NCBI RefSeq assembly: GCF_010093815.1
Contig: NW_022985580.1
Coordinates: 6,565 to 70,564 of the forward strand
Source: Pseudovirgaria hyperparasitica
Taxonomy: Eukaryota > Ascomycota > Dothideomycetes > Acrospermales > Acrospermaceae
Direction: 5' to 3'
DNA: 64,000 nucleotides
The notes beneath the pieces are model-generated. The model saw only the letters and a program-made list of their open reading frames with translations, did not search any database and was not told the DNA's origin. A program made the position numbers and the translations under genes. Position 1 is the stretch's first letter; each line of letters opens with the position of its first letter. Positions 5,116 to 61,429 of the stretch are shown here, in pieces.

Positions 5116-5146
5116 TTATTAGTTAAGGGCAGCCCTTAACTAATAA
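5116..5146. repeat. 31 nt hairpin palindrome, copy P2
   Basis: Perfect palindrome 2 nt upstream of the ORF1 ATG of LINE copy 2. The central base is A on the plus strand. Confidence 0.93.
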
Positions 5147-5402
5147 AAGGGGGTCGGCGTATCGGCGTTTATTAGATATAGTCTATACTCATATTATTAA
5201 AGAGTCTTTAAGCGTATATATATAGTATCTCTATACGTTGGTATCGTCGCGTATTATACGCTACACGTACGCACGTATGTCGGAGGTTGTTATACTCGGT
5301 ATACTCTATCGTTTAATGTATGTAAATCGCTATTTTACCCCGAATTGACTAGTTTGGTCCGTTGGGGTGTAAGAAGTTTTTCAGCTATATATATATAAGG
5401 TC

Positions 5403-6062
5403 AAATAGATATATAAAGGGCTTATAAAGGCCTAGACATCTATACTCCTCTAAGCCCGAACGGGCGCTATAGAACTCCTATACTACCTCTATAAGAGAGG
5501 CGTCCCTAACGTATCTCTATGGTATAAGGCGTATAGCCAGAGAGGCATAATACGCTACTATCTTATAATATGCCCCGATCTTTATACGTAAAGGTAGAAG
5601 CTTATCTATATAATAAGAACCTCCGATATCGTATAATAGCTTAATAAGTACCCTAAGGACGTCGCCCGGTAGATGATTATACACCTACTACTCCTCTAAT
5701 TCTAGTAGACCCGGAAATATATACCGGAAGAGACCCGGTATACGCTAGTAGTAACCCGATATATACCGGAAGAACCCCGGGAGAACCCCGATTATTAGTT
5801 AAGGGCAGCCCTTAACTAATAACCTCCGCACCTACACGTGCTACCTAAGGGTAAAATAACAGTAATATAGACTATAGGCTAATAGGCGTACCCTATAGCT
5901 ATATACTTAAGACGAAATAGAGGCTTAACGAGATATAGTTATAGATATAAGGAAGTTTTTCCCTATAGGGTTTCTTCTTACATAGTAGCTTAGACTAGAG
6001 GAGGCATAGGCCTGTAGAGTACTACTCTACCTAGTTATACAATATTATTATTATTATTATTA
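5403..6062 (+). mobile_element. LINE copy 1, second part (ORF2 end, 3' UTR, tail)
   Basis: Continuation of the plus-strand LINE interrupted at 94. It starts with the repeated target aaatagatatata and runs through the ORF2 C-terminal region, the CCGGTATATA repeats and hairpin P3, to an (ATT)n tail at about 6042-6062. It is close in sequence to 28870-29534 of copy 4. Confidence 0.9.
5792..5822. repeat. 31 nt hairpin palindrome, copy P3
   Basis: Perfect palindrome in the 3' UTR of LINE copy 1, about 230 nt before the (ATT)n tail. Confidence 0.93.
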
Positions 6063-9000
6063 TAATATAGTATAAACTAGTATTTTAGATTATCTAAGCG
6101 TAATATAGTCTTCTCTAAGTATACTAGTATCTACGTATTATATATATAGTACGCTACTAATATATATATAAATAACCGCCCGTACTATACTTAGAAAGTA
6201 TTAATTATAATATAGAAGCGGTTTAAACATAACTATAAATACTACTAGTATACGCTTAAATATTACCCCCGTCTATTATATTACTAAAGTTATATATATA
6301 AGTAGATTATAACGACCGAATACCCTAATAGACGCGAATTACTTATCGATCGCCTTCTTTACTCGTTCTATAGGGGGTATACTAGTAAATATACCCTTTA
6401 ATCTATATCCTATATACTCTTAATTAATAATATATAAGACTATCTAATTAAATATATATTCTAATATACCCTTATATAGTTGATATAGAATATCTAGAGC
6501 GACCGCGTGGTATATATTAACTCTAGTAAGTAACTAGGTAAAATTATCTAATAGCTCTATCTATCTACTAGAATACTAAATCTTAACTAATTAGTAAATA
6601 TAATAGCCCTATACTACTAGCGTGAAAGATATCGACGAAAATAATAAGATACTAGATATACTTATTCTATTATCTATCTTACTACTAGTATACTTACTAC
6701 TATAGCTATTAGTTATTAACTTATAATATATATAGTAAATCTATTTCTATAACGACGAGTATATATAGAACTCCTATATACTAGTAATAGCTTCTTATAG
6801 ATACTATCGTCTATTACTAGAGACTATATATATTAGATATATATACTAATAGAATACACCTATAATAAGTACCTACTCTAGAAAATCTATAATATATAAA
6901 GCTAAACGTGGATAGTATATACGTAAGCCGCTATTAGTATATAATACTAATACTCTAGTACTCTATATAGCCTATAATACTATATAATAATTAGTATAGT
7001 TAATAACTCTATTATAGGCGGATATACAGACTAGAACTTTACTTATAACCTAATAGAATATAAAGTAATTTGCTACTATTTCTAGCTTAACTACTAGTAA
7101 TAGAGTAAGTAGTAGAAATAATAGTAGACTCCTAGATAAGCAGACATTTAGTAGTAGATTATAAATAGATAGATAGACTAGCTATACTACTCTATTACTA
7201 CTATAGTTAGTAAGATTTATCTTATCTAAAGATAAAATAATAGAGATAATAAAGGTACTATCTGGAATAGTAGTATATATATTCTACTAACTATCTACTA
7301 TATAGACTTTACTATATACCTAGTCGCCTAAACTAGTAAATTATTATACTAGCTTAAACATAAGCTTACTAGTAAATAGTTAGTATCTAAGAAGGAATTC
7401 TACTAACGTAAGCGGATCTCTATACTAGTATTTAACTATAGTAGTACTAAATATATTATAGCTATACTACTAACTTTTATATAGTATCCCTTTAGAGTAG
7501 TATAATAACTACTTATATATAATATTAGATTTTAGTATAAAAAGGTTAGAGGGTATAGTAGAAGTCTATTTAAGAATAGTAGTTAATTTATTATATACTA
7601 TATTTAAAATACTAAACTAATTCGTCTATATTATAAGGCGCTCTATAAACTTACTATTAAATTAACTAAATCGAGTCTACTAAATTAGTTACTACTATAA
7701 TAATAGACTATATATACTTACGTTAGACGGATTATTATATCTACTATAGTCTACTAGAATATATATACCGCTCTCTTCTTTAAACGTTTTCGTTAAATAT
7801 ATAGTACTAGATACTCTTATTACTATAGTTATAGTATTTCTACTATATATATTAGACTAATATACTAAATTAGTACTATAGCTACTAGTAACGCCCTCTA
7901 TAGATTCTAGGTCCGAAATATAATTAGAGAATATAGTAGTATCTTTATATAGAACTATATTAGTAGTAGAAGTATCTAATTCTATAGACTCGGACTTCTA
8001 ATTAATACTTAGTAGCTAAATACTAATAGAGCGAACTAAAGAGTTCTATTAACTAATATAACTATAAGTACTAAAGCCGCGCCGTAACCCGGTTAATAGT
8101 AGTAGCTATGGGCCTAATAGTTATAATAATAATAGTAATACGGTAAGCTATACTTATCTATATAGTTCCGAGTTATAGTACCTACGAATTATATAGTATA
8201 TACTACTAATCTTTCTACTATAGTATTAGTAGAAGACTATAGCCCGTAGTATCTTAAGGTATAGTTACTATAAAGGAAAAATACTATAGTATAATCGTTA
8301 GTAGATAGTAATAATATAGTATATAGTAGATATTCTAGGTATATACCGGAAGAAGTTAGGTGTAAGCCTATTAAAAGCCCGATATATATCTACTAGCCCC
8401 CGACTTCTACCCGGCTCTTAGTCCCTTAATTTCTATATATACTTATATAAAATTATTAATAATAACGCGTAAGTATTACGTATCTATATAAAATACTATA
8501 TTAGTCTATGTCTAAACCTTTATCGTATCTACTAGCTAGTTATTATTCTACTATCTAATATTATTACCTAGTAGGTTACTAACCTATAGCTAATAAAAAT
8601 ATCTACTAATCTCTTATATATCTTCTCTATAGAACCTCTAATATAGAAGATAGTTAAGGGGCTATCTAGCTACTATAGTAGTAATACTAATAGAAGATGA
8701 TCTAGTAACTATAGTAAACTAAACGGGATAGATAAATGAAAATACGATATAATATAGACACGTATTAGTATTAATAATAGGGACTTATATAATAGCTATT
8801 AATATAAAATATATATATATATATATCTAGCTTATCTTAACGTGTTCGTTTATCTACTAATAAACTAGTAGTCTAGGTATACTAGTAGTAAATATAGTAG
8901 TAACGCCCTATATAGCTTAGAAGTTATAGTAATATTCTACTATAATAGTAACTAGGGATATAATAGCCTTACGTTCTCTTCTCTACTATATTAGCTATCT

Positions 9001-9660
9001 AGCTTAATAGAAGAAGATAGAGAAATAGTAGTAGAGAGAGAACTAACTATCTATAAAAAGAGGCGGTCCTATAGAGATAGTCTCTAGCCTTATAAATAAG
9101 ACCGGTACCTTACGATAATAGAGATTTTAATTACTATAATGTTTTTAGGCCGGTTACTACTAGTATTTAATTATCTTAATATATAGCTAGATAGTAGCCT
9201 AGATAGTTTTAGAATACTAGTATAATCAGCCTAGATAGCCGCGGGAGATATTAATCTTAGTAGCTACTACCTTAATTATAATTTATAAAATATACCTCCC
9301 GCCTATATTATTACGCTAGTAAAGAAAGATATAATAGACTTCTATTACTAACTTCTCTCTAGAGTTAGATAGATAGTATCTAAATACTAGAACTAGAAGA
9401 TAGCTAAGAAGAGAAAAGCTAGTATAAGTAACCTAATATATAATAACACGTATATAGGAGTAAAGGTATACTACTTATATTATATTAGATATATTACTAA
9501 TTATTAGTATAATACTAGCGTAACTTAGAAAATATTTATAGGGCTAGTAGTAATTAAGGCTCTAAAGTTAGTTCTACTATAGTCCCTAAGATTCCTTAGA
9601 TTAAAGAAGTACTATAGTAGTATATTCCAACCGATTCTACTATCTATAATTACTATTATA
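6063..9660 (+). other. AT-saturated relic with degraded plus-strand coding stretches
   Basis: About 3.6 kb of extremely TA-rich sequence between two LINE copies. No LINE homology, terminal repeats or known domain is recognised. Plus-strand frames can be followed over long stretches (about 6310-7200, 7990-8350 and 8600-9650) where nearly all interruptions are TAG/TAA, the RIP products of Gln codons. This suggests old coding sequence rather than spacer. The stretch near 8080-8150 looks like a former Gln-rich run. A short motif, tatataccggaagaa, at 8338-8355 also occurs in the LINE 3' UTR. It may be an old retroelement or a host gene captured in the repeat island. I cannot assign a family. Confidence 0.5.
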
Positions 9661-9900
9661 TATAATAATAATAATAATATTAGTAAACTAGGTAGAGTAC
9701 CACTCTATAGGCGCATGCCTCCTCTAGTCTAAGCTACTATATAAGAAGAAACCTACGAATAGGAAAAACTCCCTTATATCTATAACTACACTCTATCTAT
9801 CCTCTCGTTCTTTATATATATATAGCCCTAGGGGCTACCTATAGGCCTATAGCCTATATTATAATAGTTTACCCTTAGGTAGCACGTATAGGTGCGGAGA

Positions 9901-9931
9901 TTATTAGTTAAGGGCTGCCCTTAACTAATAA
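9901..9931. repeat. 31 nt hairpin palindrome, copy P4
   Basis: Perfect palindrome with central T in the 3' UTR of LINE copy 3. Confidence 0.93.
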
Positions 9932-10049
9932 TCGTGGTTCTCCTGGGGTTCTTCCGACGTATACTAGGGTTCTTCTAGTATATATCGGGCTTCTTCTAGT
10001 ATATATACGCGGGTCCACTAGAACTAGGGGAGAGGAAGGTGTATAAGTA

Positions 10050-13000
10050 TCTATCGGGCGACGTCCTTAGAGTACTTATTAAGCTATTACGTAATATCGG
10101 AGGTCCTTATTATACGGACGAGGGCTTATCTTAGGGTATAGAGGCTAGAGCACGTCGCGAGATAGTGGCGTATTATATCTCTCCGGCTATAGTCCTCGCA
10201 CTAGGGAGATATATCTAGGACGCCTCTCTAGTAGAGATAATATAGAAGACCTATAGCGCCTATTCGGGCTTAGAGGAGCATAGATACTTAGGCCTTCGTT
10301 AGCCCTTTATATATCTATTTACTTAGTTCCTTCTAAGGCCCTCGGATCTATTCTAGATACCTATTCTATTAGGAGGCCTACTAGGCTTTAAGTACCTCCC
10401 TCTATTTATTCTAGATCTACGACTATATAACGCGGCTAAGCTCCTTAGGGCTCTATTAGCTCGGGACGGTATCCGGGTTATTTCGAACCTCCTACGCGGT
10501 CTAGCTTAAGTCCGCCTCTATATAGTATTTATATTATACTCGAGTTTATTCTATAGTAGAGAGGGCCTAGTAATACGCGCGGATACGTATACGTAGTACG
10601 GCGAAGATATATACTCTATCTCCTCTACGTTCTTATACTTATTATTTAGTAAAGTATATAAGTCTCTATGTCTAGTAGAAGTCCTATATACTCGTTACGT
10701 TTATCTCGCGTTAGAGAAGCGTCGTGTTAGTAGCTTTATATACGCCAGAGATAAGGCGGAGTATATAGTTTTATATAGACTTAAGCTTTGCCCGCCAAGC
10801 TTATATAAGGGCCGTATACTAGTACTCGTATCTATATATAAAGGCTAGGCGTACTAGGGAGACGTATAGCTATCTCGCCTTATCCCGGGCTGTTCTCTAC
10901 ATAGATACCGTAATCTAGTATATAGTGGTTTCTACCTAGAGGGCTCTAGAGACGGCGTGTGCCACCTATAGTCCCCATTTTAGCTTATTATTAATTATAA
11001 CGCCGAGTGCTCGTATACTCTATACTAGTAGTTCTATAAAGGTATTAATTTAGGGGCGACGTGCCCCCTCCCTAGTAGCCTATTCTCTATAGCGGTTAAT
11101 AAAGTATATAAGCTAGTATTTTTTAGGTACGAATTTTACTCCATGGCGCTTTATCTACTAGACGCATTTCTCGTGGTCTCGTTCGAGTCGTGTATATATT
11201 CTACTAGTACTACTATCGACTATAAGGAGGTATATATCGTCCGCGTATCTAACTACCTCTATATATTCTATTCTCTAAAGAAGGTCTACTATAAAGAAGA
11301 GGAAGAGGATCGGGGAGATAGTACTCCCTTACGGGATGCCGTATACCGTCTCCTTATATTCGCTTCGGTATCCGGGGATATATATTTAAGTAGTCCTTTA
11401 CGCGAGGAAGGACTATATAAATCGTATAATCCACTTAGGTATTCGCGTTATCCGGAGGTTATAGATAAGTCTTATATGGTTTACCTTATTAAACGCCCCT
11501 ACTATATCTAGGGAGAGTAGCGTAATAACTCGTCCTTATTTCTATATAGTCTAGATAACCTTAAGGATGTGTTAAATAGCTATAATTAGGGAGCTTTCTA
11601 CCTTCGCCTTCTAGTTTACTAGGAGAAGGCCGTATACCTATACTACTATACTTATCTTCTTAGTAATCGTAGCTTCTAGTACCTTACTAAGGTAGAAGAG
11701 GAGGGCGATCGGCCTCTATCCCTTCGGCGTATTTAGGCTCTTCCCTAGTTTTAGGAGTATAACTATATATATAGTTCGGAAGCTCTATAGGTGGTATCCT
11801 ATACGGGCGCACGCTTAGAATATATGGCCTATAATTAGTAAGGTCGCCTATATAGTCCTCTTAAGGCATTAATTTGGAATTCCATCTAGCCCGGGCGCTT
11901 TATTATTCAGGAGTATCTTAATAGCGCCGAGTATATCGTTATCCGTGATTTCCCTAGGGATACTTACAGCTTCTAGGTATTCCGTGCCGTCGATATCTAA
12001 TAGGTCTACGGGTTCTAGGAGAGGGAATATAACCTCTTATAGGATCTCTATTTTCTCGAGGCTCGTGGAGTACGTCTTTTCTTAATATATAAGAGGGGGT
12101 ATAAGTGGTATAGGTGTCGGGGAGGCGGTGCTTTTAGCCTATTTTACTATATACCATAGTCTAGTAGTATTACGTATGTATCTATCCGTGACTATATACT
12201 ACTATTTACGTCGCTCGTTACGGAGGACCTTATCTTATTATCTTCTCGCCTCTCTCTATTTATCCTACGCTTTAGGTATACGGTTATAGTATACGCGTAT
12301 ATATAATCTCCGGACTTCTCGCCTATACTCTCGTACTTAAGGTATGCTTTTCGGGTCTAGGGGTCTATATATTCGGTACGGCACGTGTTTATCTCTTACT
12401 CCCTAGTATATCTATAGGAGTATATTCACGGCCTGGTTAATGGCCGGGCCATTAGATACGTCGACTATAGACGGGTCTAGGATCGTTAATTCTAGGTCCT
12501 TCAGGTACTTTTCCTAGTTAGTATCCTTCTATAGCTATCGCCCTTATTAGTCTTAAGGGGTAGATACATCTATTACGGTCTCCATGTATTCGTAGTTAGA
12601 GTCTATCTATATAAGGCTTAGGCGGTAGTATTAAGTTCTATTATAAATATATCTAGTGGCTAGGGTAAGGTCGAGTGTAGATCCGCCCTTATCTTATTTA
12701 TATTTTCGCTAGGTAATCTATCCTACTAGTATAAGAAGGTATAGAAAGCCGTAGTATTAGGTGCGTAGTTCTCTAGCTCGAAGCTCTTCGCGGGTGACGG
12801 TTAGTCTACCCTACTAGCTATAATAGAGGTTGAAGTCTCCTAGGAGGATATATTATTCTAGCTTAGTAGTACCCTTAAGCATGTTATCCGCCTAAAGCGA
12901 TTAGTTCTAATTATATATATTATATATATAGAGGGGTCCGATGTTCGTCTAGAGGTGTAGTATTATCTAGAGGTTATCCCGTTTAGTATACGACCATAAT

Positions 13001-13180
13001 AAGAGTAGAATAGACTTATAGATATGGAAGAGGACTCTCCTCTCCGGTCCTAGGGGGTGTATTATATAATATCCTAGGTGTGTTATTGGTTTATTCGTCT
13101 GGTAGTGTTTATATAGCTTCTATATAGCGAGTATTATAGCTCCGGTCTCCTCGAGGAGTGTCGCCTAGTCCTCTAGTTTA
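10050..13180 (-). pseudogene. LINE copy 3 ORF2 (endonuclease to C-terminus), degraded
   Basis: Same ORF2 as in the other copies but from a diverged subfamily. The RT catalytic motif at about 11233-11253 (minus) still reads YADD. The RT N-terminal PGLDGIPN-like block lies near 11880-11910. The endonuclease GDFN-like block is near 12830-12850. The plus-strand open frame at 11143-11511 is antisense. Frames are broken by many TAG/TAA codons. The N-terminal limit is set by loss of homology near 13180. Confidence 0.8.
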
Positions 13181-14480
13181 GAGTTAGATAACTTCTATAG
13201 ATTCGACGTGCCCTATACTATTAGGCCCTGCTCCTATTTTCGCCTTATCTTATCCCCTCTAGACTTATACCTCCGGCTCTACTAGGAGAGGTGACCGAAG
13301 CCTCTCCTAGCTAGGTAACTACGAGGTTTACTCCTTAAACTCATGATACTAGCGTACGTGCCTTGTAGATGACACGTTCTATCTCTTTATAAATTAATAC
13401 GCGCATCCGTTCTCTCGGGCCATATAGTAGTCTCTCTAGCTAGAATATAATTCTATCTACTTCTAGATATACTAAGGGTTAGAGCCTATTAAAGGGGTAA
13501 GGTCCTTAGAGCTAGTAGTTACTACTATATACCACGCCCCGCCTTTAAGTATTACTACTTTTCGGTTTCGCGTTACCTATAAGGATCTCTCTATAATAGA
13601 CCGACCGTGTCTTATAGGAGAGTATCCTCTAAATCCCTTACGTATATACGCCTAGGCGACTTAGGTATTCTCTTCCTACTAACCCGACTTGTTTCTACTA
13701 CTCTTAAAGGGTCCCTATAGCTGCCTCCTATCTATGTCTATGTACTATTATCTATATGCTCTAGTATCCCACCTTCTACGGTAGACTATAACATCTCTCA
13801 TACGCGGGAGCTACTCTACCTATTAGTAGTAAAGTAGTATCTTATATCGAGCGAAAGGTCTTAATAGAGTCGTGCTACTAGTAGTCGTACTAGGCGGCTT
13901 AATAAATGTAGTTTAACACTATAGGAGAGTTAGCTTTAATAAGTTCTTCTAGTAGTAGTTTCTTAGTTACCCTCGACGTGTTCCTTACGTTCCTAGAGCC
14001 GTTTAAGCCTCGAGGTGTCCTATCGCGCTACTAGGACCTCCGCTTCCTCTACCTAGTTAGTAAGATAGATTCAGGCCTACTTTCGACATAGTAGTAGCGC
14101 GTTAGATGGTTTTCTTATCCCTTTATCCTCGTGAACTTCTCTTAACGCGTTAATTAGGGATAGGATAGAAGTATATACTTCCCTAGCTGGGTTATGTTAG
14201 CGTGGTTTAGTAAGGTAGACGCTCCGTGAAAACTCTTTAACCATCTATCTAGCGACGACTAGGTTACCATTAACGCCGCTCCGAACCTCTTACTACCTCT
14301 ATAGAGGCATTGCCTAGCTACGACGACGTGGACGCGGTTCGTGAGGCTTCGTAGCCACTATTATATATATTATAATAAGGTATACCCTTAATAAATATAG
14401 TAGTAGGCGGGCGCTAAACTCGTTCTTTAGTCGCTATAGATTCGTATACTCTCTACTAATACTAGGTATATATATATACC
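13181..14480. other. GC-richer unassigned island
   Basis: About 1.3 kb with visibly higher GC and more surviving CA/TG than its AT-saturated neighbours. It is bounded by the broken end of LINE copy 3 and by an AT-rich relic. Both strands give interrupted frames whose stops are mostly TAG/TAA. The minus strand shows the longer near-continuous stretches, rich in Arg, Lys and Leu. No motif was recognised. It could be a captured host fragment or part of a younger transposon. Confidence 0.4.
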
Positions 14481-16030: not shown

Positions 16031-17002
16031 ATACTATACCTTTATAATCTTAATCCCTAGATATTTTTACTTATTAGCTTATTCTATATATAAAAGATTC
16101 TCTATACTAATAGTCTATCTCTATACTAGTACTACGTATATCTATATTAGATATATAGCTACTTAGATAGACGCGCTAGGGAAGATATTATCTATTACGT
16201 TTAGGTTACGTAAGATATTTTACTATACTATATTAGTTATAGTAGTAAGTACTATCTCTTTTAGTATAACTTTAGTAGCTATAATATTTAACTATATTCC
16301 CTTCTATTTATTAATCTTATTTATAATTTCCTTTAGGGATACTTATTAGACCTATATAAGGGTATCTCTATTCTAGATTATAATATATATACTATATACT
16401 CTATCTATAATTCTAGCCGTTCTTAGGGCGGTAGCTCTAGATATAGCTATAATCTATATCTATATATTAGAGTACTTATCTTAGGATAGCTCTTTCTAAA
16501 TCCGTCGTAAGCTAGTCTCTATTCTATTAAATCTATTATCTAGTTCTCTTTATAGTAACTTCTATAGTAATCTTCTCTCTTCCTCTATAAGTTCTCTTAG
16601 ATTCTAGATAAGGTTCTAGAATATATAGAGGAGGGTCTTCTTCCCTTCCTCTATATCTTTCTCTATATATATTATCTAGTATTTAATTTTATCTATAAGG
16701 GTCTCCCCTCTTAGAGTCCCCTTAGACTTAGTTATCTATAGTATCTCTTATTCTTAGTTAGTTTCTATATTTTAGATAGGTATTTAACTATCTATATTAA
16801 TATTACTATATAGCCGTTTCTATTATACTAGTAGAGGTATTTCTAGTATATACTAGGGTATAGCTATATCTAAGGCCGCTATAGTTATTAGTTAAGAGCT
16901 ACCCTTAACTAATAAAAGGGGTTTAGTATATTAGCGTTTATTAGATATAGTCTATACTTATATTATTAAGGAGTCTTCGAGCGTATATATATAGCTTCTT
17001 TA
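16031..17002 (-). mobile_element. LINE fragment (ORF1 and 5' UTR), part A
   Basis: Minus-strand LINE sequence covering most of ORF1 and part of the 5' UTR, including hairpin P5. It is closest to the heavily mutated copy 7 (60540-61510). It breaks off after agcttcttta at about 17002 and resumes at about 18524, so 17003-18523 interrupts it. It is too decayed to code. Confidence 0.85.
16885..16915. repeat. 31 nt hairpin palindrome, copy P5
   Basis: Palindrome with two differences from consensus, upstream of the ORF1 start position of a decayed minus-strand LINE. Confidence 0.88.
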
Positions 17003-17147: not shown

Positions 17148-17560
17148 TATATATTAACTCTATATTAACTCTCTATTAACTCTCTATTAACTCTCTATTA
17201 ACTCTCTATTAACTCTCTATTAACTCTCTATTAACTCTCTATTAATTCTCTATTAATTATCTATTAACTCTCTATTAACTCTCTATTAATTCTCTATTAA
17301 TTCTCTATTAACTATCTATTAAGTCTCTATTAACTATCTATTAAGTCTCTATTAACTCTATATTAACTCTCTATTAACTCTCTATTAAGTCTATATTAAT
17401 TCTATATTAACTTTCTATTAACTCTCTATTAAGTCTATATTAATTCTTTATTAACTCTCTATTAGTAAAACTATATTAATTCTCTATTAACTATCTATTA
17501 AATCTCTATTAACTCTCTATTAACTCTATATTAATTCTCTATTAACTCTCTATTAATTTA
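17148..17560 (+). repeat. 12 bp minisatellite ttaactctctat, about 34 units
   Basis: Tandem array of ttaactctctat with point variants (ttaattctctat, ttaagtctctat, ttaactatctat). Unit length is constant at 12 bp except for one or two irregular units near 17465. No coding role is apparent. Confidence 0.95.
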
Positions 17561-19162: not shown

Positions 19163-19193
19163 TTATTAGTTAAGGGCTACCCTTAACTAATAA
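19163..19193. repeat. 31 nt hairpin palindrome, copy P6
   Basis: One difference from consensus (central TG to TA). It lies 2 nt upstream of the ORF1 start position of LINE copy 4. Confidence 0.92.
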
Positions 19194-49274: not shown

Positions 49275-49362
49275 TATCATTTTATAGTAATGATAGGGTT
49301 TATTATCCTCTTTTAATGATGGAGTTCATCGTCCTTTTTCGATAATAGAGTTTATCGTTATA
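49275..49362 (-). repeat. About 28 bp tandem repeat, 3 units
   Basis: Units of the type aatgatagggtttattatcc with diverged spacers. Confidence 0.75.
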
Positions 49363-49528
49363 AGACTACTTTTATAAGTATCCCTTCCCTCCTTAAAAAA
49401 ACTTCTATCCCCTAGAAGGAGATGTCGATTCTAGAGAAACGTAAATATTCTTCTCTATTGAAGTCTTATAGAGTAGAAATTACCACTTCTACCCGGGTTC
49501 GTATAGCGTCGTTAAGGTATTCCGTAAG

Positions 49529-52500
49529 TTATTTATAATAGTTTTCCTTATCGCTACTCTTCTTATTTTCCTTAGTAATTCTTCTAATTAGTAGTCGCGA
49601 GGGCTCGTCGTAACTCTCGTTACTTATATTTCTTATAAAATATTTCTTTAACCTATGGCTAGGAAACGTCCCTCTAAGCATGGCTCTATTAAGCTCCGCG
49701 AGCTTATAAGTATAATTAAACACGGACTAGATTCTATATGGCCCCCTCTAATGCTACCTTAGCTTCCGCCCTATGTTCTTCTATCGCTACGAGTCGTATA
49801 GAAGGATAATCGTATCGACTAGTAACGACTCTTAACGAAGGTAATGGTCGTTATTCCATGCCTCTCTCGATTCCTTACGCGTTCGTGTCGCGTAGATATA
49901 GGCCTCCTTAAGATCCTCGGATCTTCTCTTAAGTTATCTAGCTCGAAGAGTAAGTAAGTCGGATGTCGATCGCACCTCGTCCTAAGGGAGTATTCGGAGC
50001 GACTCGAATTCGACTTCGATAGGCATGATTAGTTTATAGCTAAGCACGAGGTATATAGTACTATACCCTATACTAGCACGTGTCGTTATTCTATCTACCT
50101 AGATAACCGCATGGAGGTGGCCGGGCTAGTTCTTAAATCCGCTATTAGTTATCTTCGTAAGAGCATTAGCGAGTAGTATAAAACTTCTCTTAATAATTCT
50201 ATTTACTCGGGGATTATATATAGACGTAACCTTCTAATAAATTCTATAGAGTCGGAGGAGCTCCTCTATGGCACCTATATTTTCTCTACCACCATTATAG
50301 GTAATTTTAGGAATGATTCCGTATCTATAGATTACGTTCTTAAAGAGGAACTTTACGACGACTATAGACGTGGCCGCCGTACATGCCTCCGCCTTAGTCT
50401 ATCCGCTTAGCTATTCTCGTATAGATACTACTTTACTATACTCTATAGAAGGTGGTAGCGTCGTTACGTCTAAGTATATTCTTTACTAAAGAATAGACGT
50501 TATAACGTGGTAGAGCCCTTTATTAAGACCTCTAAGAAGTTTACTTTATCGTTAATATTCGTTATAGGTTTTCACGTACTATCGCACGTCTCTACGTATA
50601 TCTACCTACTAATACTTATCCTTAATCCTTCTAAGGGTCCCTTCGCTATCTCTATGATCTATCTTATTATAAGTAGTAGTAATTATACACGCCCTAGTAT
50701 TCGGATCCTTAATTACTCGTGTGTGTTAGCGATACCTATCTTCTCTCTACTAGAGTATTCGGTCACACACGAGGAACTTTAGATAGTTAGTTATAAAGGC
50801 CTTATACGCTCGGTCGGTTAGGTCGGTTAGCCTCTTAAGTATAGTAAGGTACTTCGTAATCCTCTACCATTTATCGCTATATTTATCTATTAAGGGAGAC
50901 TTAATAGCGGTATAGTTGAGTATCCCTATCGTGTAATCTCTCCCGCTAACGGGCTTAATTAACGACGTCTCTAGTACGTCTATATATAGAGCCATATCCA
51001 CGAACTCGTCTAGGTTAAAGGTAGAGACGTCTAGTAGTTCTTCTCCTTCGTATATCCATAAGATACCATCAGCGACTACGTTACGCTTCCTAGGTACGTG
51101 CCTAACTATAAAGTTCTATAGCTAAATCCACGCGAGCCACCTAGTAACGAGCGCCCCTAGTAAGTTAGTTACGGTATAGTTAATTTAAGTAACTAGAGTA
51201 TTCGCGTCTATTTTTATAATAAAGTACGTGCTATAGAGATATTACTAGAACTTCTATAACGCGTGGAGGAGGGCTTAGTACTCTAGCTTCACGGTGTCGT
51301 AGTTTCTGTTAGCTTTTAACTACATTCCTCCATTATACCGCGATAGCTAACGTTTACGATTCTCGTTCTCCTATATTAACGTAGCTCTCTACCTAACGTT
51401 ACTAGAGTCTACTACTAGGATTATGTCTCCCGTACCTATCCTATACCGTAACATTATTAGTATAGGAGTAGTGGTTAGAGCTATCTTTAGCGCGTCCATC
51501 GAGGTCTACTTCTTAGCTATCTACTACTAGACCGATTTATTCTTTAATAGTATAAATAGCGGTAATATAATAATAGCGTACCCGGGGATCTATATCCGGA
51601 AATATATATAAACGCTAAGGAAGGCTCGCACATTCGTCGTGTTTTTATAGGGTTTCTAGTCCCTAATAGTAGTAACCTTTTTATTACTCGGTCGCCTCCC
51701 TTTAATATCGTAGACGTATCCTATAACGTTAGCGGCTTTAACATACTACTAAGTCTTCTTACTACTTAGGGCGTATCCGGCGCGCTCTATATCCGCGAGA
51801 ACCTTATCTATGTTAATTAAATGTTCTAGAATATACCTACGAATTCTAGGCAGGGCCTCCTTAGAGTTATATTTCGTCGTAGGTCCTTTAATATCTAAGT
51901 CATCTAGGAATAGTAGAGCCCTCTCCGGGATGTGTTCTTATATAATAGTTAATATAATTCTAATAAACTAAGCTACTAAATTAGTAGCCCCTTAAGGTAA
52001 TATTATCCCGCGTAGTAATTCTAGGGGCGTTATAAACCCCGTTAAGTCTTAGTAATACTCTACTAATAGAATCTAATTATATCCTAAGAAGAAGTTGGTA
52101 AACGTTAAGACGGCTATCCCCGTAAAGTGCTCCGAGAACTCTTTACACGAGGGCGGCGTGGCCGTATTACGAATAGTGACTCGGTTAATTTCTATCGCCG
52201 AATTGATTAACCTATAATCTCGTTCCTTATTAGCTTCCTTCTTCTTTTCCACGAGAAAATAGGCGTTTTAATAAGGACTACTATAGGGCTCGAGCCTTCC
52301 GCTATTAAGACGCTCTTTTAGGATTATGAGTACCTTCCTATAAAGGGCTCTAGGAATATTAAAGTTCTTAGCCTACTATACCTTATGTTCTACCGTTCGG
52401 ATCTCCTACGGAGATGCCACCTCTTTATTAAATTTACTAAGGTATAAGAATTTCTATGCTAGTACTTCCTCGCGATATAATAAGATTATATATAGTAACT

Positions 52501-53040
52501 TAAGTTCCGCGGGACGTAGCTCTATTCTAATCTTTAGCTAACTTATACGTAGAGGCGTTAGACGTGTTCCTAGCGGGATAGTTACCCTTCAAGGCTCTAT
52601 TAGCCTACTAAACGCGTTAAGGCCTAGATAGACGGCCAGAAGAAGTACCTACCGTGCGATTACTCGTTCACGCTAGTCTAGATACCCTAATAGATTCCTA
52701 GGAACCTTTCGGTAGACTTCGGAGTCATCTACGGGGTATACTTTAACTCCCTTTCTTTTATACATGGTAGCCATATTAAATCCCTTTAATACCCCGGATG
52801 AATACCGTCTTTAGAGGCTAGTAGAGCCTACTATAAGCTATTCTATTATCGTGCCTTATTTATGTACGAAGGCAGCGTACCTTACTACCGTAACTAGGGC
52901 GGCTAAGTCATCTTTTCTTAATAACCGAGTAACATTTTTAGGCCGGATTTTCTCGGAAAGTAACTCTATATAACTCATTTCTATATCCGTATAAAAATAT
53001 AGCCTATCCCCTTCGTTAGTAGGTTTACCGGACCCTATTT
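49529..53040 (-). pseudogene. Inner element RT-RNase H-integrase region (fossil)
   Basis: RT blocks include LLFLDDLDIKGP at about 51885-51920 and a following IRRYILEHL block. RNase H lies at about 51550-51150 and integrase at about 50900-50000. The C-terminal section (minus-strand open frame 49529-49723, YKLAELN...) matches the tail that follows integrase in this fungal Gypsy lineage. The LDDL(D/A)KGP-type RT is distinct from the outer chromovirus RT. No chromodomain was recognised. Fossil, broken. Confidence 0.82.
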
Positions 53041-53048
53041 AGTGCGGA

Positions 53049-53079
53049 TTATTAGTTAAGGGTAGCCCTTAACTAATAA
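53049..53079. repeat. 31 nt hairpin palindrome, copy P14
   Basis: One difference from consensus. Flanks cgga/tccg extend the arms by four bases. It separates the gag-protease and RT regions of the inner LTR element. Confidence 0.93.
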
Positions 53080-53289
53080 TCCGGCTTAACTCCGGCTTCT
53101 AGCGATATACTCCGCTATATAGTTAGTCTCTAGCCACGGAGTTACCCTCCTTCTCTAAGACTAGAATATACTTATCCGGACTAGTTTCGAAGGTTACACG
53201 TTCTTATCTATATACGGAGTAGACTATTAAGAGTACTTACCCGGAGGCTAACCTCTATACTATAAGTAAGGCCTATCTAGTATATGGCT

Positions 53290-55720
53290 CCCCTAGAATA
53301 AGATTATAATTAAGTTCGCTATACACGAATATCGAAGTGGCCGTAACGATCCGACCTATATAGATAGGGTATTACTATACTATTCCTACGAATAGAGTAC
53401 TATACTAAGTAGCGCTAACTAAACTCGAGTTCTTTATATATGGTAGAAGCGAAGATATCGCTAGCCTAAGACGCCTCGTAGCATCTAGTCGAATACTATT
53501 TACCTATGCGCTACTATCGAATAGTACTATACTAGTCGCCCTTTTAGGACTAACTTCCACGGGGTACCTTAGATACTTAGCCACTAGCCTTACTATCCCT
53601 TCCTTAAGCTAATTAATATCTTATTACGTGATGGCCGTCCCTATGGCATAGAGGGGTACTAATACATTAAGTTTATTTATCTTAGAAGCCATAGTATAGT
53701 CGTTTCTTTCTTTCTTCTCGGCTCTCTCTTCTTAAGTCTTATAGACCTCTCTAGCCATGAAGTCGGGGGCGCCCTTCTTAAACACCGTACGATATAAGTT
53801 ACTATTAAGGCTTAATAGTTTACTAATAGTAATGTTTATGGTTATCCCTAGAACGCGCACTAGCTATGCTTCGCTAGCTTCTATACTTAGCCGCTATCCT
53901 TCGCGTAGATAGTTATTAAGCTTAACACCTCGGATACGTGCCTTTTGACTAGGATTTAGGCTATCCCCTTCATCTATCTTGTCCTCCAGCGCCGTTGGCT
54001 CTTATTTAGACGTTCTCTAGTCGCTACTCTTCTCGCCGTCCTCCTATTCCTTAATAATCCTTATATACTACCCTTTACGCATTCCGCGGAGGCGGGCGAT
54101 CTTTCTTTCCTTAGTATAATTAGGTATACTCTTCGTGATCCCCCTTCTAGATATTACGAGTATAGCGGGCTCTTCTAGAGCTATCTCCTTATGGATATAT
54201 CTATTACTAGCCACGTCGAAGCGTTCGTAGAATTCTATATATCTATCTTTCTTACTCTCGGGCGATATAACTTCTTCTTCTAAATCGCTATCCGCCGAGG
54301 CCTAGTAGGGACCCTTCATAGGTTTTATACTAATACTATATACCGGCACTCCCTATAAAGCGTTAATGTTTACTACGGACGTAGAAACCTTTACTCCTTC
54401 TCCGTACTAGCTTAGGCCGTTTTAAACCGTTACTATATAGTTTCGGATAGCTTATAGAGTAGCTTATAGCCCTACCGAGGAGGGTAGTAATAGGATTTCT
54501 TCTCCGTTCGCCCTAAAACGCCCTTAGAATACTCGTACCCCGTTAATATTTAGTAATCCGTCTCTAATATATTCTACTATCTCCGGATATCTATATATTA
54601 GGTGATCTCCTCCGTACGTAATATATACGATCGGTCTTCGAGGCCTATCCTAGGCCATAACGCCTCCTTAGAAGTCTTAGGTAGAGACGTATTCTCTATT
54701 CTATATATAATTCTATGGATAAACTTACGTTAGTTCTATGGATATGCCTCGTACTTAGGGATGTACTAAAAGATTTAGCCTTCGCGCCTACTAGTTAATA
54801 ATAGCCGAAAGTAGCTTAGGTTCGTACTTCTTAAGGGATAGGAATAAGGGATTAGAGGTAAAGTAGGACTTTATCTTAATTAACGTGAGGTCTAGTTTAC
54901 TAAATCTCTCTACTATCTCGTTAAACTTGTCCGATTCTAGCGCGACGTGTACTACGACTAGAGAGGGGTAGTTAAATTTATTAGTTCTTCTTTCTTTATA
55001 TAACTACTCTTCTAAGCCGGTCTTCTTACTCTCTATCTTTAATTTATAGTATATGGCTATGGCTAGCTCTTGTGCGGCTAAGTACTTATTAATATAAGCG
55101 AGTTCCTTAAGTGCTCTAGCCTTTCGTAATACGAAGCCATAGATAATTACCTAGTCGTAACTATGTACTTCCATCGTAAGTTAACATTTCTCTATAGCCC
55201 GAGCCTTAAGACTATTAGGCAGCCCTTCTAGGAAGAGCTCTATTCGCGAATACGAGCTTAGGCTTCCTTTAGCCGTAAGTTTCTCTATAATAACACGATA
55301 CCGGGAGTAGTACATAGGGAGAGAGTAGGATAGGTCTACTTTAACCATTTCCACGTATTTTCGGATAAAGTGGATGGTGCCTTCCTCGAGGGTAGAGTTA
55401 AATAGAGAGAATTCCTTTAATAATTCTTCACGTAGCGTAGCCTACTACTATTTCTAAAACCTACTTATTCCTTTAATAGTAGGACGGAGATAGTCCTCGT
55501 AGTATGACGGTAGAGAGGTTATCTTCTTATTAGGCGGAACTTCGTAGTTTATATACATGTCCTCGTACTTCCGAAGGAAGGCCGTAATATTTATTCCTTT
55601 AAAGCGCTCGGGGGCTAGGGTAGATAGAGGTACTATCCTTCCTTATCGCGCAAATGCTACGAAGAAGTTAAGTATCTCTCTACGAGTTACTAGGTTGTTA
55701 TTTTAAGCTCCTATCGCACT
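53290..55720 (-). pseudogene. Inner element gag-protease region (fossil)
   Basis: Coding region downstream of hairpin P15. The first third has a capsid-like section around ERFKGINITAFLRKYEDMY (about 55560-55620). The final part, about 53650-53290, resembles a retroviral-type protease, with a VNSIRLDATRRL block and a later LGEPY block. Hairpin P14 lies after it, so gag and protease form one ORF separated from RT by the palindrome. Fossil, broken. Confidence 0.7.
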
Positions 55721-55763
55721 ATTACTAGTAGTAGGTATACTAGTGGAGACGCTAGGGGTAAGG

Positions 55764-55790
55764 TTATTAGTTAAGGGATTACCTTAACTA
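55764..55790. repeat. Hairpin palindrome, partial copy P15
   Basis: Imperfect palindrome upstream of the gag region of the inner element. The centre and one end differ from consensus, but both arms are recognisable. Confidence 0.75.
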
Positions 55791-56273
55791 AAGGTTGGCC
55801 TAATGCGTCTACCTATAACACCTATTATCCCTTCTCTATGTTAACTAATCCCTTTATAAGGTGAACTATTACTATCGTCTTCATTAATATAAGGTTCACG
55901 GTATTCTACTTATGTTATTATCTTCGTGTAAGGCGTTCCTAAAGTGGTATACTCGTATAGCCGTGTTTATAAATAATAGCTATAGTAGCACTAAATAGAT
56001 TATATTTGTCGTTTTTGAACTCTTCTTTACTGCTTCATCTAGCCCTATTTTATATCCTATTCCCCTAAGACATTTTCGAGTCGCGCTATCACCCGTGTTA
56101 GTATGCGCATGCTTTTTACGGCTACTTTTAAGAGGCTAGCCCCTAGCGACTCCGGACTCCCTGTTTTCCGGACTCGTGGCTTCGATCTAGTAAGTCTAGA
56201 CTACCTTATTAGGCACGCCATATACTTCCCCTAAGCTAGTTTCGGAGTCCTAATCTCCCCCTATAAGTTCGTA
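55791..56273. other. Inner element 5' leader
   Basis: About 480 nt between the primer-binding site and hairpin P15. No ORF was recognised. It retains relatively many CA/TG dinucleotides. Confidence 0.5.
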
Positions 56274-56291
56274 GTCCGGGTACGACCTCTA
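56274..56291 (-). other. Inner element primer-binding site candidate
   Basis: 18 nt on the minus strand, tagaggtcgtacccggac, a few bases inside the 5' LTR. It has the position and TGG-like start of a tRNA-complementary primer site. The tRNA is not identified. Confidence 0.55.
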
Positions 56292-56295
56292 AAAT

Positions 56296-56667
56296 TATAG
56301 TAAGCTATCGCCACGTGTGTCCCTTTTATAAATAGCTATGTTCCTAGTATAGTAGTCGCGACGAACTCATAAGTATCTCTCCTAGGTATTATGAGTTCTC
56401 TTTGAACGTACGACTTCTTATTAGTTCTCTTTTATAATAGGACGGGTCTATATAATACTCTTAATCAATTCTTTAATAGCTAAGCCTAATAATTAATACC
56501 TATAGAGGCCCATGAACGTAAGAAAAGGTCGAATAGTCGAATATTAGTGATGGGGGAAGCGCGCCGAGTAGAATGACCAAGGAAAACGCCCTCCTTAAAT
56601 ATATAATGAAGCCATGTAATCGAGCTAGGGACATATACATATAGGGCTACAGGAGCGGCCTTCTATA
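56296..56667 (-). repeat. Inner element 5' LTR
   Basis: 372 bp. On the minus strand it begins tatagaaggccgctcc. Its partner is at 45230-45601. Confidence 0.94.
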
Positions 56668-56677
56668 CTATATTAGA

Positions 56678-57049
56678 CTAAAAAGAGAAACGGCGTTTAG
56701 AGCAAGGCGGCGAAGGCGTAAACTCTCGATTATTGTCTACGACAAGATCTTCTTCATCCTCTAAAGGAGGTATAGTAGATAGGCGGCGCGAGTAGGTGTA
56801 GGTAGGCTTTATAGCTACCTCTTCCGTAACACTAGTACTAGGATTACCTAGATTAGAGCGACTAGTGGCCACGTTAGTGGTAATAGTAGTAGTAGCCTTA
56901 GCTACCTTCTTCTCTAACTTAGAGCGCGCCTTTATACTACTATAATAAGTGGATTTTTTAGCCGGTATAGCCGGGGTAGAGATAATCCCTTTAGAGCGAG
57001 TCTTACGAGAGGAGGAGGTAGACTTAGGAATAGAACTAGTATTAGACAT
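56678..57049 (-). CDS. Outer element antisense ORF, 123 codons, Ser/Thr/Lys-rich
   Basis: The longest open minus-strand frame in the LTR region, beginning MSNTSSIPKSTSSSRKTRSK. The product is low-complexity and basic (Ser, Thr, Lys, Arg), with an acidic stretch near residues 96-106 and KRR near the C-terminus. It is probably disordered, possibly nuclear. It lies antisense in the 3' region of the outer chromovirus. Its last codons abut the left-hand insertion point of the inner element, so it may once have joined the coding sequence at 44290-45225. Function unknown. Confidence 0.5.
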   Translation of the reverse strand: MSNTSSIPKSTSSSRKTRSKGIISTPAIPAKKSTYYSSIKARSKLEKKVAKATTTITTNVATSRSNLGNPSTSVTEEVAIKPTYTYSRRLSTIPPLEDEEDLVVDNNREFTPSPPCSKRRFSF

Positions 57050-57518
57050 CTATATATATACGTTAGCTAGAGGTCTAAGAGTAGAATACTTATTTAGCCT
57101 TAAAGGCGATTAAAGAAGCTAAATTAGTAACCGTAATAACGCGAATAGATTACATAGAACCAGCTCTAATAAAAATAGACTACTCTAGACCCGAACGGAT
57201 CTAAACTAAAGGAGATAGTATACGAATTAACGACTTACCTTAAGAGTAAGGTAGATATACTAGAGAAGAAAATTCAGAATAAGAGAACTAAATATAAGCT
57301 TAGTTAATATAGCGGTTATATAACCCGCGGAGCTATCTCTAAGGTAGTAGCTATGAAGTAAGGGATAAGCGTATATATAAATAAAAGTAAACTAGAGCTT
57401 AAGTTTACCGATATAAAGACTATCGATAACGTTACATAGATTTAATTAGATGCGCGTATAAATATAACGCTTATAGAATTACGGATTTATATATAGCTAA
57501 GTGCTTCGGGGCGAAGCA
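57050..57518. other. Outer element 3' noncoding region
   Basis: About 470 bp between the antisense ORF start and the polypurine tract. The first part is the likely 5' flank of the antisense gene. No ORF or known motif was recognised. Confidence 0.45.
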
Positions 57519-57536
57519 TAAAAAGAAGAAGGATAT
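57519..57536 (+). other. Outer element polypurine tract
   Basis: A purine run (aaaaagaagaaggat) directly before the 3' LTR, as expected for plus-strand DNA priming in LTR elements. Confidence 0.8.
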
Positions 57537-57776
57537 TATTAGGGCTAATACCAGGATAGACTTAACTAGAATACTATGGTCTAGTACGGTCCGTGACAGG
57601 TGGACCTAGGGTAAGTTAGCTAGAATAAGCGAGACCACTATATAAGTAGGCCGCATACACTTAATTCCTACTCTTTAGGAATTAACCTTGTTAGGAGAGT
57701 AGACTACCCTTTTAAATATATTCCCGAATCCTCCTATAACCTGTTAGACTACTATCCTACGTCTACAATCCTTATA
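57537..57776 (+). repeat. Outer element 3' LTR
   Basis: 240 bp partner of 38325-38564, followed by the duplicated target cttac. Confidence 0.94.
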
Positions 57777-60700
57777 CTTACCCCCCTTAGTAGTCTATTT
57801 CCCTTAGTAGTTAATAAAGTATATAAGCTAGTACTTTTTAGATATAAACTTTACTCTATAGCGCTTTACCTATTAGATATATCTCTTATAGTTCTATTTA
57901 AGACGCCTATATATCTAGCTAGTATTATTATTAATAGTAAGGAGATATATATTATCTATATATTACGTTCTCTAGAGAAGGTCTATAGTAAAGAAGAGAA
58001 AGAGAATTAGAGAGATAGTACTTCCTTAAGGAATACTATATAATATTTTTTTATATTCGCTATAATATCTAGAAATATATATCTAGATAACCCTTTTAGT
58101 AAGGAAGGACTATATAAACTATATAATCTACTCTAGTATACGTCTCCTCTATAGATTATAGATAAGTCTAGTATAGTTTATCTTATTAAATATACTAGCT
58201 ATATTAAGGGAGAGTAGCGTTACTATATATCTCTATTTCTATATTTATAGTCTAGATAACTTTAAGGATATATTAGATAGCGGTAATTAGAGAGCTACTA
58301 GTCTTTATCTTCTAGTTTACTAGAAGAAGACTATATACCTATACTATAACGCTTATCTTCTTCGCGATTATAGCTTCTAGTATCTTTCTAGGATAGAAGA
58401 GAAGGGTAATTAGTATCTAACCTTTTAGAGAGCTAGGATTCTTTTCTAGTTTCGGGAGTATAACTATATAGATAGCTTAGAAGCTTTAGAGATAGTATCT
58501 ATTCTTAGCGTATACCTAGAAGATAAGATTAATAAGCGGTATAGTTACCCGTATAGTATATTTAAGGTACCTATTTAGTATTCTATCCGGCCTAGATACC
58601 TTATTATTAGAGAGCGCTTTAATAGTATTAAGTATATTCTCTTTAGTAATCTTCTAGGGAATATCTATTAGATCTAGATACTTAGTATCTTTAATATTAG
58701 ATAGGTCTACTAGTTCTAGAAGGGGGAATATAACTTCTCGTAGAATCTCTATCTTCTTCTAGCTTATAGAGTATATTCTTCCTTAGTATATTAGAGGAGG
58801 TATTAGTAGTAGTAATACTAGGGTATTAGTATCCTTAGCCTACTTAGCTATATACTATAGCTCTATAGTTTATTATATATACTTACTAGTAATTATATAC
58901 TATTATTTATGTTATTTATTAAGGAGGGTTTAGTTATAATATTATACTATCTCTTTCTACTTATTCTATGCCTTAGTTATCTAGATATAGTATATATATA
59001 TATATATAGTCTATAGGCCTCCCGTCTATATTCTTATATCTAAGATATACCCCTTACGTCTAGGGGTCTATATAGTTAGTATAGTACGTGTTTATCTCTT
59101 ATATTCTAGTATACTTAAAGGAGGGTTTATACGGCTTTATTAATAGTAGGGCCGTTAGATATATTAACTATAGGGGTATCTAGAATCGCCGATTCTAGAT
59201 TCTCTAGATAGTTATCCTAGTTAGTATCCTTCTATATCTACTTTCCTTATTAGTTATTAAGAGTAGAGACGTCTATTATAGTCTCTATATATTTATAGTT
59301 AGAGTCTATCTATAGTAGGCTTAGGTAGTAGTATTATACTCTATAGCTTATATAGTTAGTAGTAAGTATAAGGTCGATAGTAGATCTATCCTTATTCTAT
59401 TTATATCTCTTCTATATAATCTATTCTATAGATATAAGAAGGTATAGGAAGTCCTAGTATCGTATATATAGCTCCCTTACTCTAAGTTCCTCTCTAATAA
59501 TAGTAGGGCCTCTCTACTATCTATAGTAGAGATTAAAGTTACCTAGAAGGATATATTCTCCTAGTATTATAGTATCCTTAAGTATATTATCTAGTATAAG
59601 TAATTACTATTAATTATATATATTATAGATATAAAGGGGCTCTATACTTATCTAGAGATATAATATTATCTAGAGGTTATTACGTTCGGTATAGGACTAT
59701 TCTAAGAGTAGAATTAACTTATATATATAAAATATTACTCTTCTATCTCGGCTTATAGGGTAGATAGTATAGTATTCTAGATATATTATTAGCTTATTAG
59801 TTTAGTAGTACTTATATAGCTCCTAGATAGTAAGTATTATAGCCCTAGTTTCTTTAAGGAGTATCGCCTAGTTCTCTCTTTTATACTATATATTTACCTA
59901 TATAATTTAGAGTATATTATAGTCCCTTATTAGATACTAGAGAGTATATATATCTATATACTTATTTCTTAGAGGTAGAGCTATCCCCTTATAGTAGTAG
60001 CTTTAACTATATCTTTTAGTCGCCCTATTATTCTAGAAATAGTCTACTATTCTACTAGGTTACCGTTCTAGAAGAAGGTTAAGGTTATATTTATTATAAT
60101 AGAAGAGCTTATAGTAGATATTATATTTTATAGCTATATTATATCTCTTACTTTTATTATATAAATATACTTAGTAATCTATCTATATTTATTATATATT
60201 AATAATTATAATGGGTATTTTCCTTTATAGTTTAAATACTATACTATATTCTTATTTCTTAGTCCGTCTTCTTACGGTTTATAAGAGTATTTCTAGATAG
60301 TATAGTCTCTATAATACTAGCCGTATTTAGTCTTCTATAAATACTATTATATAGTATAGCTATACCCTTAATAGTTAAAGTACTATATTATTATCTATAC
60401 TCTATTCTATAGTTTAGCTATAAAAAGTTTATCTTCTATAAGGAATCCCTTCTATATAATATATTATATAAGGGTAGAGTCCTAGAGCTATATAATTATA
60501 GTAGAGTATTTTTTAATCTTTGCCTTAATCCCTTATAGATTCTTCTATTATACCTTTATAATCTTAATCTCTAGATATTTTTACTTCTTAGCTTATTCTA
60601 TATATAAAAGATTCTCTATACTAATAGTCTATCTCTATACTAGTACTATATATATCTATATTAGATATATAGCTATCTAGATAGATACGCTAGGGAAGAT

Positions 60701-61398
60701 ATTATCTATCGCGTTTAGATTACGTAAGATATTCTACTATACTATATTAGTTATAGTAGTAAGTACTACCCCTTCTAGTATAACTTTAGTAGCTATAATA
60801 TTTAACTATATTCTCTTCTATTTATTTATCTTATTTATAATTTCCTTTAGAGATACTTATTAGATCTATATAAGGGTATTCTTATTCTAGATTATAATAT
60901 ATACGCTATATACTCTATCTATAATTCTAGTAGTCCTTAGGGCGGTAGCTCTAGATATAGCTATAATCTATACCTACGTATTAGGGCGCTTATCTTAGTA
61001 TAGCTCTTTCTAAATCTATCGTAAGCTAGCTTCTATTCTATTAAGTCTATTATCTAGTTCTCTTTATAGTAATTTCTATAGTAACTTTCTCTCTTCCTCT
61101 ATAAGTTCTCTTAGATTCTAGATAAGATCCCGGAATATATAGAGAAGGGTCTTCTTCTCTTCTACCGTATCTTTCTCTATATATATTATCTAGTATTTAA
61201 TTTTATCTATAAGGGTCTCCTCTCTTAGAGTCCTCTTAGACTTAGTTATCTATAGTATTACTTACCCTTAGTTAGTTTCTATATTTTAGATAGGTATTTA
61301 ACTATCTATATTAATATTACTATATAGCTATTTCTATTATACTAGTAGGGGTATTTCTAGTATATACTAGGGTATAGCTATATCTAAGGCCGCTATAG

Positions 61399-61429
61399 TT
61401 ATTAGTTAAGGGCTATCCTTAACTAATAA
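61399..61429. repeat. 31 nt hairpin palindrome, copy P16
   Basis: Two differences from consensus. 2 nt upstream of the ORF1 start position of LINE copy 7. Confidence 0.9.

Follow-up and report, generated by a model that had tools for sequence, protein, structure and literature searches.

We analysed a 64,000-nt stretch of the genome of Pseudovirgaria hyperparasitica (contig NW_022985580.1, positions 6,565 to 70,564 of the forward strand; hereafter the window), in which one short palindrome is shared by two unrelated classes of retroelement. Self-alignment resolved the window into nested repeats: copies of a long interspersed nuclear element (LINE), and, inside one of them, an outer long terminal repeat (LTR) element that in turn contains an inner LTR element. 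The 31-nt palindrome, TTATTAGTTAAGGGCWGCCCTTAACTAATAA, occurs 16 times, with 0–2 mismatches in 15 copies and six in the other (55764). As the initial annotation had counted, 13 copies belong to the LINE family and three to the inner LTR element, and the outer LTR element outside the inner one carries none even at up to 9 mismatches. Only four stop-free frames of at least 150 amino acids occur in the window, as expected after repeat-induced point mutation (RIP); at two loci of this genome with less degradation, CpA+TpG counts are balanced. When RIP-type ambiguity was allowed, the 25-nt core of the palindrome matched 14 times in the window and never in 100 dinucleotide shuffles. The replication machinery of LINEs differs from that of LTR elements, and we know of no untranslated or boundary motif common to both. 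All genome counts below refer to this one genome, an assembly of 35.03 Mb in 59 contigs.

Three LINE copies are full length: 83–5398 (minus strand), with a 3′ palindrome at 339–369 whose left arm is un-RIPed and a 5′ palindrome at 5116–5146; 20187–25436 (minus), with 3′ and 5′ palindromes at 20428–20458 and 25202–25232; and 30296–35604 (plus), with a 5′ palindrome at 30545–30575 and a 3′ palindrome, bearing a one-letter arm variant, at 35322–35352. Three further copies are 5′-truncated and keep the 3′ site: 5403–6069 (plus; palindrome 5792–5822), 25470–29542 (plus; 29261–29291) and 9646–13190 (minus; 9901–9931), which self-alignment and phase analysis place in a diverged subfamily. Two fragments, 16032–17002 and ~18907–20189, carry 5′ palindromes at 16885–16915 and 19163–19193, and the copy split by the outer LTR element has its 3′ part at 36901–38326 (minus; palindrome 37159–37189) and its 5′ part at 57780–61690 (minus; 61399–61429). 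The family, labelled Tad1-like in the initial annotation, was identified as a LINE through an un-RIPed relative, L084, which aligns to the window copies at 66–89% and encodes a LINE-type reverse transcriptase (RT; RVT_1, E = 2.2e-33; L1 ORF2 chains, E = 4.9e-19). A fragment with a typical RT motif sits on the minus strand of copy 83–5398 (2256–2519), and a minus coding strand in LINE copies of plus orientation makes sites of the 339 type 3′ and those of the 5116 type 5′. Truncated copies retain the 3′ end, as in 5′ truncation, and codon periodicity past the 5′ site and before the 3′ site fits two open reading frames (ORFs).

The TTAAGG form of the palindrome looks like a RIP-mutated version of TTATTAGTCAAGGGCWGCCCTTGACTAATAA, which was first met, with one mismatch, in L084, and which occurs exactly at three places in the genome and with one mismatch at five more. 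By their flanks, these eight places comprise six LINE 3′ sites (L084, L086, L087, L090, L091 and L092), one LTR-end site (L089) with one un-mutated arm, and L088 (C47:9001–13000; 1990–2055), a ~54-nt fragment resembling the LINE 5′ flank. The L088 fragment, bordered by inverted ACTGCGCCG, has other DNA on one side and a truncated Gypsy-type pol frame on the other. Because the un-mutated form is present in both classes, the letters common to LINE and LTR elements predate RIP. The sharing of one 31-nt palindrome proposed initially stands, although its perfect form is not the original, having apparently been RIPed from a slightly different palindrome.

The core consists of two 10-nt half-sites, TTAGTCAAGG, in inverted orientation around a 5-nt spacer. 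Matching outer arms, present in most cases, bring the whole to 31 nt. Exact half-sites (TTAGTCAAGG / CCTTGACTAA), sought with any spacer of 0–20 nt, were found at five places in the genome, all with a spacer of 5, and one mismatch at spacer 5 gave 25 places. Spacer letters read GCWGC at LINE, LTR-mid and LTR-end sites, GATTR at the LTR gag site and GATTC in a solitary host copy described below; half-site variation among 124 collected rows falls mainly at pairs 9/23 (RIP) and 10/22. A search with the un-RIPed 13-mer half-site returned 43 rows, 14 of them sites already known and 29 other places: 16 intact LINE sites, three LINE sites minus one arm, seven LTR gag sites, one host palindrome and two lone half-sites in host DNA (L095 and L099) that look like chance. 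An element with the half-site as its terminal repeats was considered and rejected, the 29 extra places having resolved to LINE, LTR gag, host or chance. Within the window, to which that search was confined, no isolated RIPed half-site occurs at up to 2 mismatches.

Genome-wide, there are 114 exact RIPed copies, and up to 3 mismatches to the TA-centred form yield 492 forward and 472 reverse matches at mostly identical places, or about 490 sites; reversed-pattern controls gave no match. We classified 150 listed places, all on contigs C1–C11. Pairing at LINE spacing (~4.8 kb; most commonly 4789 or 4777) or LTR spacing (~7.3 kb; most commonly 7301 or 7302) accounts for 103, and every one of the remaining 47 matches the LINE or the LTR element by flanking sequence, which makes free mobility unlikely. 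Scoring by flank assigned 75 sites to LINE 5′ (28), LINE 3′ (23), LTR-end (12), LTR-mid (11) and LTR gag (1) positions. The listed places occupy four fixed positions within two families, the fifth, the gag variant, being too divergent for genome searches with the RIPed form. A pattern designed for novel flanks, requiring G as the first or second outward letter, retrieved 10 places, all of them LINE 5′ sites sharing one flank variant. Viral contigs contained no match to the RIPed or un-RIPed form, and prokaryote genomes a single one, on an Acinetobacter contig, which by estimate is about the chance expectation.

In the LINE, the palindrome delimits the coding region, as had been suggested, and does so to the nucleotide. 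An ATG (5 copies) or ATA (14 copies) lies 2 nt past the 5′ palindrome in 19 of the 20 LINE copies inspected, and the flank of the twentieth (L116) shows ATG; at 5116–5146 the ATG stands on the minus strand. The N-terminus of ORF1 is alike across LINE subfamilies, and transversions by codon position show a third-position excess in its frame at 331–631 (12/11/30, p = 0.0015) and 631–931 (5/7/27, p = 1.1e-5), with no significant excess nearest the palindrome (31–331; 15/12/19) and none upstream of it (17/21/21). At the other end, three un-RIPed copies keep a frame open through the LINE part to ...ENPDY or ...ENSDY, followed by a TAG in the left arm of the palindrome. Two diverged window copies show ORF2 periodicity in the same phase as this TAG (27/7/3 over −1500 to −900, p = 1.5e-6); the nearer bins have the same phase highest, none significantly by itself (12/4/5, 10/5/3 and 12/5/8), and the last 160 nt before the 3′ palindrome, which are repetitive, have no periodicity (5/3/5). 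A comparison of L084 with L087 (34/31/28) was set aside owing to an internal deletion in L084. A short tandem repeat of ~21 nt at the 3′ end of ORF2 (L086 and L087; ~370–480 in the window) is apparently translated and varies in length among copies.

The inner LTR element (45228–56672, minus strand), putatively of Gypsy type, has paired LTRs, the 5′ at 56294–56672 and the 3′ at 45228–45605, that are 94.5% identical. Pieces resembling gag, RT, a YLDD-type region, RNase H and integrase, named by eye, fall into one frame class relative to 53049; Pfam matched no retroelement family in 10 inner-element pieces and gave nothing credible among 19 stop-free pieces of the window. The minus-strand orientation puts the palindrome at 55764–55794 near the start of gag and that at 45749–45779 near the 3′ LTR; the third, at 53049–53079, lies upstream of the RT region, apparently in frame within gag-pol. 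Of 21 intervals of 300 nt from 55772 to 49772, 16 have strictly fewer stops in the gag-pol frame class than in any other, three show a tie and two favour another frame. Stops shared by all 11 copies around the 53049 site number 8 in the frame through the palindrome versus 19 and 21 in the others (a misaligned upstream block, 142/136/142, was excluded). The gag site, in which both half-sites are kept while the spacer and one outer arm differ, is in phase with the gag frame and belongs to the same class; in L094, one of four copies translated, it runs uninterrupted through TFSQGNPLTNN after 57 open codons. Judged by these frames, the 53049 and gag sites look intragenic and in phase within gag-pol. 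The ORF boundary between gag-protease and pol that had been drawn at 53049 is therefore not upheld, since gag-, RT- and integrase-like pieces share the frame class with the fewest shared stops.

At the remaining site, 45749, the gag-pol phase would end ...APENLPDY-TAG in L089, and stops common to 13 copies upstream (18, 8 and 6) leave two frames not separated. Codon periodicity could not be read in the LTR element, whose copies are too similar (transversion columns 1/1/2 and 1/0/0 downstream, 0/0/0 upstream of the end site). A plus-strand frame with few stops at 45971–46801, near the 3′ LTR, may represent an additional gene or simply shadow the sense frame. The LTR copies are not LINE fragments: beyond the palindrome there is only weak similarity over ~70 nt between 53049 and the LINE 3′ site. 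For this pairing, joint flank tests gave p = 0.001–0.026, uncorrected, in eight same-sense pairs; the other 48 of 56 comparisons gave p = 0.06–1, and the best single-flank test between LTR and LINE gave p = 0.0065, also uncorrected.

We then considered how well the palindrome is conserved relative to its surroundings. At the six window LINE 5′ sites, transversions or gaps affect one palindrome column, compared with a median of 7 in 414 overlapping intervals, of which 0.5% are as low. Four un-RIPed 3′ sites have 4 such columns versus 15 (7% of 458 as low), in a sample biased by having been found via the palindrome. With neighbouring ORF1 sequence as query, which returned 40 places, the best 10 of the 40 all keep the palindrome with transitions only; these 10 loci are close relatives, one being the window copy itself. 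The palindrome is also retained across LINE subfamilies that align at ~68–78%, and its computed hairpin energy is about −18 kcal/mol.

One copy lies outside both element families. At C19:255595 (L122) the palindrome is solitary in a 5.5-kb stretch of 53% GC between convergent host genes, a Reb1-family Myb gene and a zf-DNL gene that faces it, with a cullin gene beyond; by inspection, the arms can be traced over 23 nt, two mismatches included. It sits ~770 bp past the Myb gene, which matches PDB 5eyb (E = 1.8e-15) and, below the cut-off, Pfam Reb1_MybAD (E = 0.0016), with a sub-threshold chromodomain match as well. Without the palindrome, the stretch has no match among the other loci compared, and the host copy may be a source, a target or a relic. 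A Reb1-type terminator of ribosomal DNA (rDNA) was considered as a counterpart and is not supported: the sole rDNA unit found, through a 5.8S search, looks RIPed and reads mostly N before 18S, and the 4.2 kb beyond its 28S end contain no half-site even with 1 mismatch allowed. This only rDNA unit found in the assembly (L123, L126; C40) looks RIP-mutated, including its 5.8S and internal transcribed spacer.

Several other repeats accompany these elements. The outer LTR element (38327–57779, strand unassigned) has terminal repeats at 38327–38567 and 57539–57779 and contains, at 44010–44045, a different imperfect palindrome with arms near ACCCGAACTA / TAGTTCGGGT. Inverted repeats of ~606 bp (95%; 29701–30305 and 36254–36855) flank LINE copy 30296–35604, and each contains a further near-perfect palindrome around TAATATAAGCTAGTACTAGCTTATATTA (29948–29977 and 36580–36609). 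A minisatellite of ~36 copies of an 11-bp unit occupies 17152–17556. In L084, the un-RIPed DNA beyond the LINE part holds an unrelated strong palindrome at 1394–1428 (GCTCTTGGCAACATATTGTTGCCAAGAGC).

That one palindrome is shared between two unrelated retroelement classes of a single genome is confirmed. Chance is excluded as the source of the shared letters and convergence over so many of them is implausible, which leaves transfer between elements followed by retention as the simplest account. We tentatively favour the view that the palindrome is a discrete cis-acting module of two co-resident retroelement families, acquired by transfer and kept for recognition, likeliest as an RNA hairpin. 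One family would have received the module from the other, most simply via template switching during reverse transcription, and would have kept it because something recognises it; as a hairpin at the limits of coding regions, the module could steer translation, packaging or reverse transcription. Its function we infer from two features of its placement and letters: the exact fit to LINE start and stop codons points to action at the RNA level, and half-sites that stay fixed while the spacer is free fit recognition of RNA or DNA by a protein. On this view, action as an RNA hairpin seems the likeliest, and DNA recognition by a dimeric protein nearly as likely. Among the three origins put forward in the initial annotation, an acquired functional module fits best, a freely mobile palindrome is disfavoured by the fixed positions, and a host-recognised signal may yet apply, the solitary host copy being its sole hint.

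Several observations weigh against this account. Two codons of the ORF1 frame are stops in all 22 aligned copies, one of them being visible in all 19; these are of the kinds that RIP makes, yet may be older. Stops shared over 15 copies leave the ORF2 frame and the next frame both open (0 and 0), and in L125, a diverged relative of the LINE, 24 of the 25 core letters survive but the outer arms are lost, and the ORF2 frame seems to stop upstream. Conservation at the seven window 3′ sites is in only weak excess (1 column versus a median of 4; 8% of 387 intervals as low), and several un-RIPed copies were found by the palindrome search itself, which favours conserved ones. The same deletion has removed one arm of the 3′ site in L100, L109 and L120, where a complete 3′ palindrome was therefore not essential. 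Pair counts over the 124 rows reveal no convincing compensatory changes: double changes to another standard pair occur only as C-G to T-A at 9/23 (90 rows) and 15/17 (one row), for which RIP accounts, and as C-G to A-T at 15/17, the pair on the loop side, in 10 gag-variant rows. Of the LTR sites, two appear from their phase to be coding rather than boundary sites, the 53049 site has an in-frame stop inside the palindrome in all 11 copies (IIS*GLPLTNN in the five translated), and homology between the flanks of 53049 and the LINE 3′ site is only suggestive.

The same data bear on other explanations. A DNA operator, at which a dimeric protein encoded by the host or an element binds the half-sites and controls or terminates transcription, is a lesser but real possibility: half-sites and their 5-nt spacing are fixed while spacer letters and outer arms vary, and the solitary copy lies between convergent genes close to that of a Reb1-family Myb protein. 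However, this host copy is the single one found, the lack of a half-site after 28S in the sole, apparently RIPed rDNA unit leaves a Reb1 terminator role unsupported, and the precise alignment with start and stop codons would go unexplained by a role in DNA. It is unlikely that the palindrome is a mobile coding element in the style of Rickettsia palindromic elements, inserting in genes and surviving in its open frame or at ORF ends. The un-mutated form is indeed open in one frame per strand, two LTR copies lie in that frame, one LINE copy falls at a stop codon and the host DNA holds a solitary copy; such an element would nevertheless be expected at many unrelated sites, whereas the 150 listed copies fit four positions of two families and the two extra host half-sites look like chance. 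Nor did inspection of flanks, short of a systematic search, reveal the target-site duplication of such an element or of a miniature inverted-repeat transposable element, and no empty site was found; the un-RIPed Gypsy element L085, in which no palindrome with 12-nt arms reaches 11 matches, is too distant to serve as one.

Rather improbable, too, is a neutral hitchhiker that passed between elements on one or two occasions and appears intact only because sequence lacking CpA or TpG escapes RIP. Its arms have no CpA left after RIP and further RIP cannot touch them; CpA/TpG remains at the centre, where RIP-type variants do occur, and one group of loci has lost an arm. Yet transversions and gaps, which RIP does not produce, are also rare at 5′ sites, and neither the exact ATG and stop fit nor retention among LINE subfamilies at ~68–78% is expected of a neutral passenger. 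We consider it very improbable that the LTR palindrome was selected as protein, its peptide SQGxPLTN marking protease cleavage sites at domain borders. Two copies stand in gag-pol phase near likely domain borders, L094 reads through without a stop, and the peptide presumably resembles retroviral protease sites; the LINE, however, uses the palindrome outside that frame, and letters that would be free at the protein level are identical as well.

Known systems offer partial parallels to the proposed cis-acting module. Rickettsia palindromic elements are likewise short repeated palindromes with one open frame, in frame within coding genes, but measure ~150 bp and occur in many unrelated host genes, whereas the present palindrome, of 31 nt, is linked to two retroelement families (PMC10969869). 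Nematomorpha mitochondria have perfect inverted repeats inside protein genes, although their arms, of up to 284 bp, encode conserved protein regions, whereas in our case a single short sequence is repeated among unrelated elements (PMC6649704). The chimeric retroelements of Magnaporthe (WEIRD, Mg-SINE and MGL), in which LINE template switching fuses RNA pieces from different elements, illustrate a plausible transfer route; they are fusions of transcript copies, in contrast to a small module retained by two families of elements (PMC2104539). Stem-loops in LINE 3′ untranslated regions that are recognised by reverse transcriptase resemble our palindrome as hairpins near a LINE 3′ end; unlike them, it lies ~250 nt from that end and spans the stop codon, is matched by a second copy at the start codon and is found in an LTR element too (PMC5135761). 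Among the papers listed by literature searches, none dealt with this motif or with a palindrome common to LINE and LTR elements, which is no proof of absence.

A more far-reaching idea, which we regard as quite improbable, is that the palindrome is a 31-nt selfish hairpin residing in retroelement RNAs and copied between elements when reverse transcriptase switches templates at it. If so, it would colonise only reverse-transcribed sequence, settling at start codons, stop codons and wherever its own frame stays open, and, in moving across the LINE and LTR classes, would rank as the smallest parasite of parasites. The cis-acting module that we favour, set at LINE start and stop codons and in frame in the LTR element, would, if true, imply either that the two retroelement classes exchange regulatory parts or that a host factor reads both.

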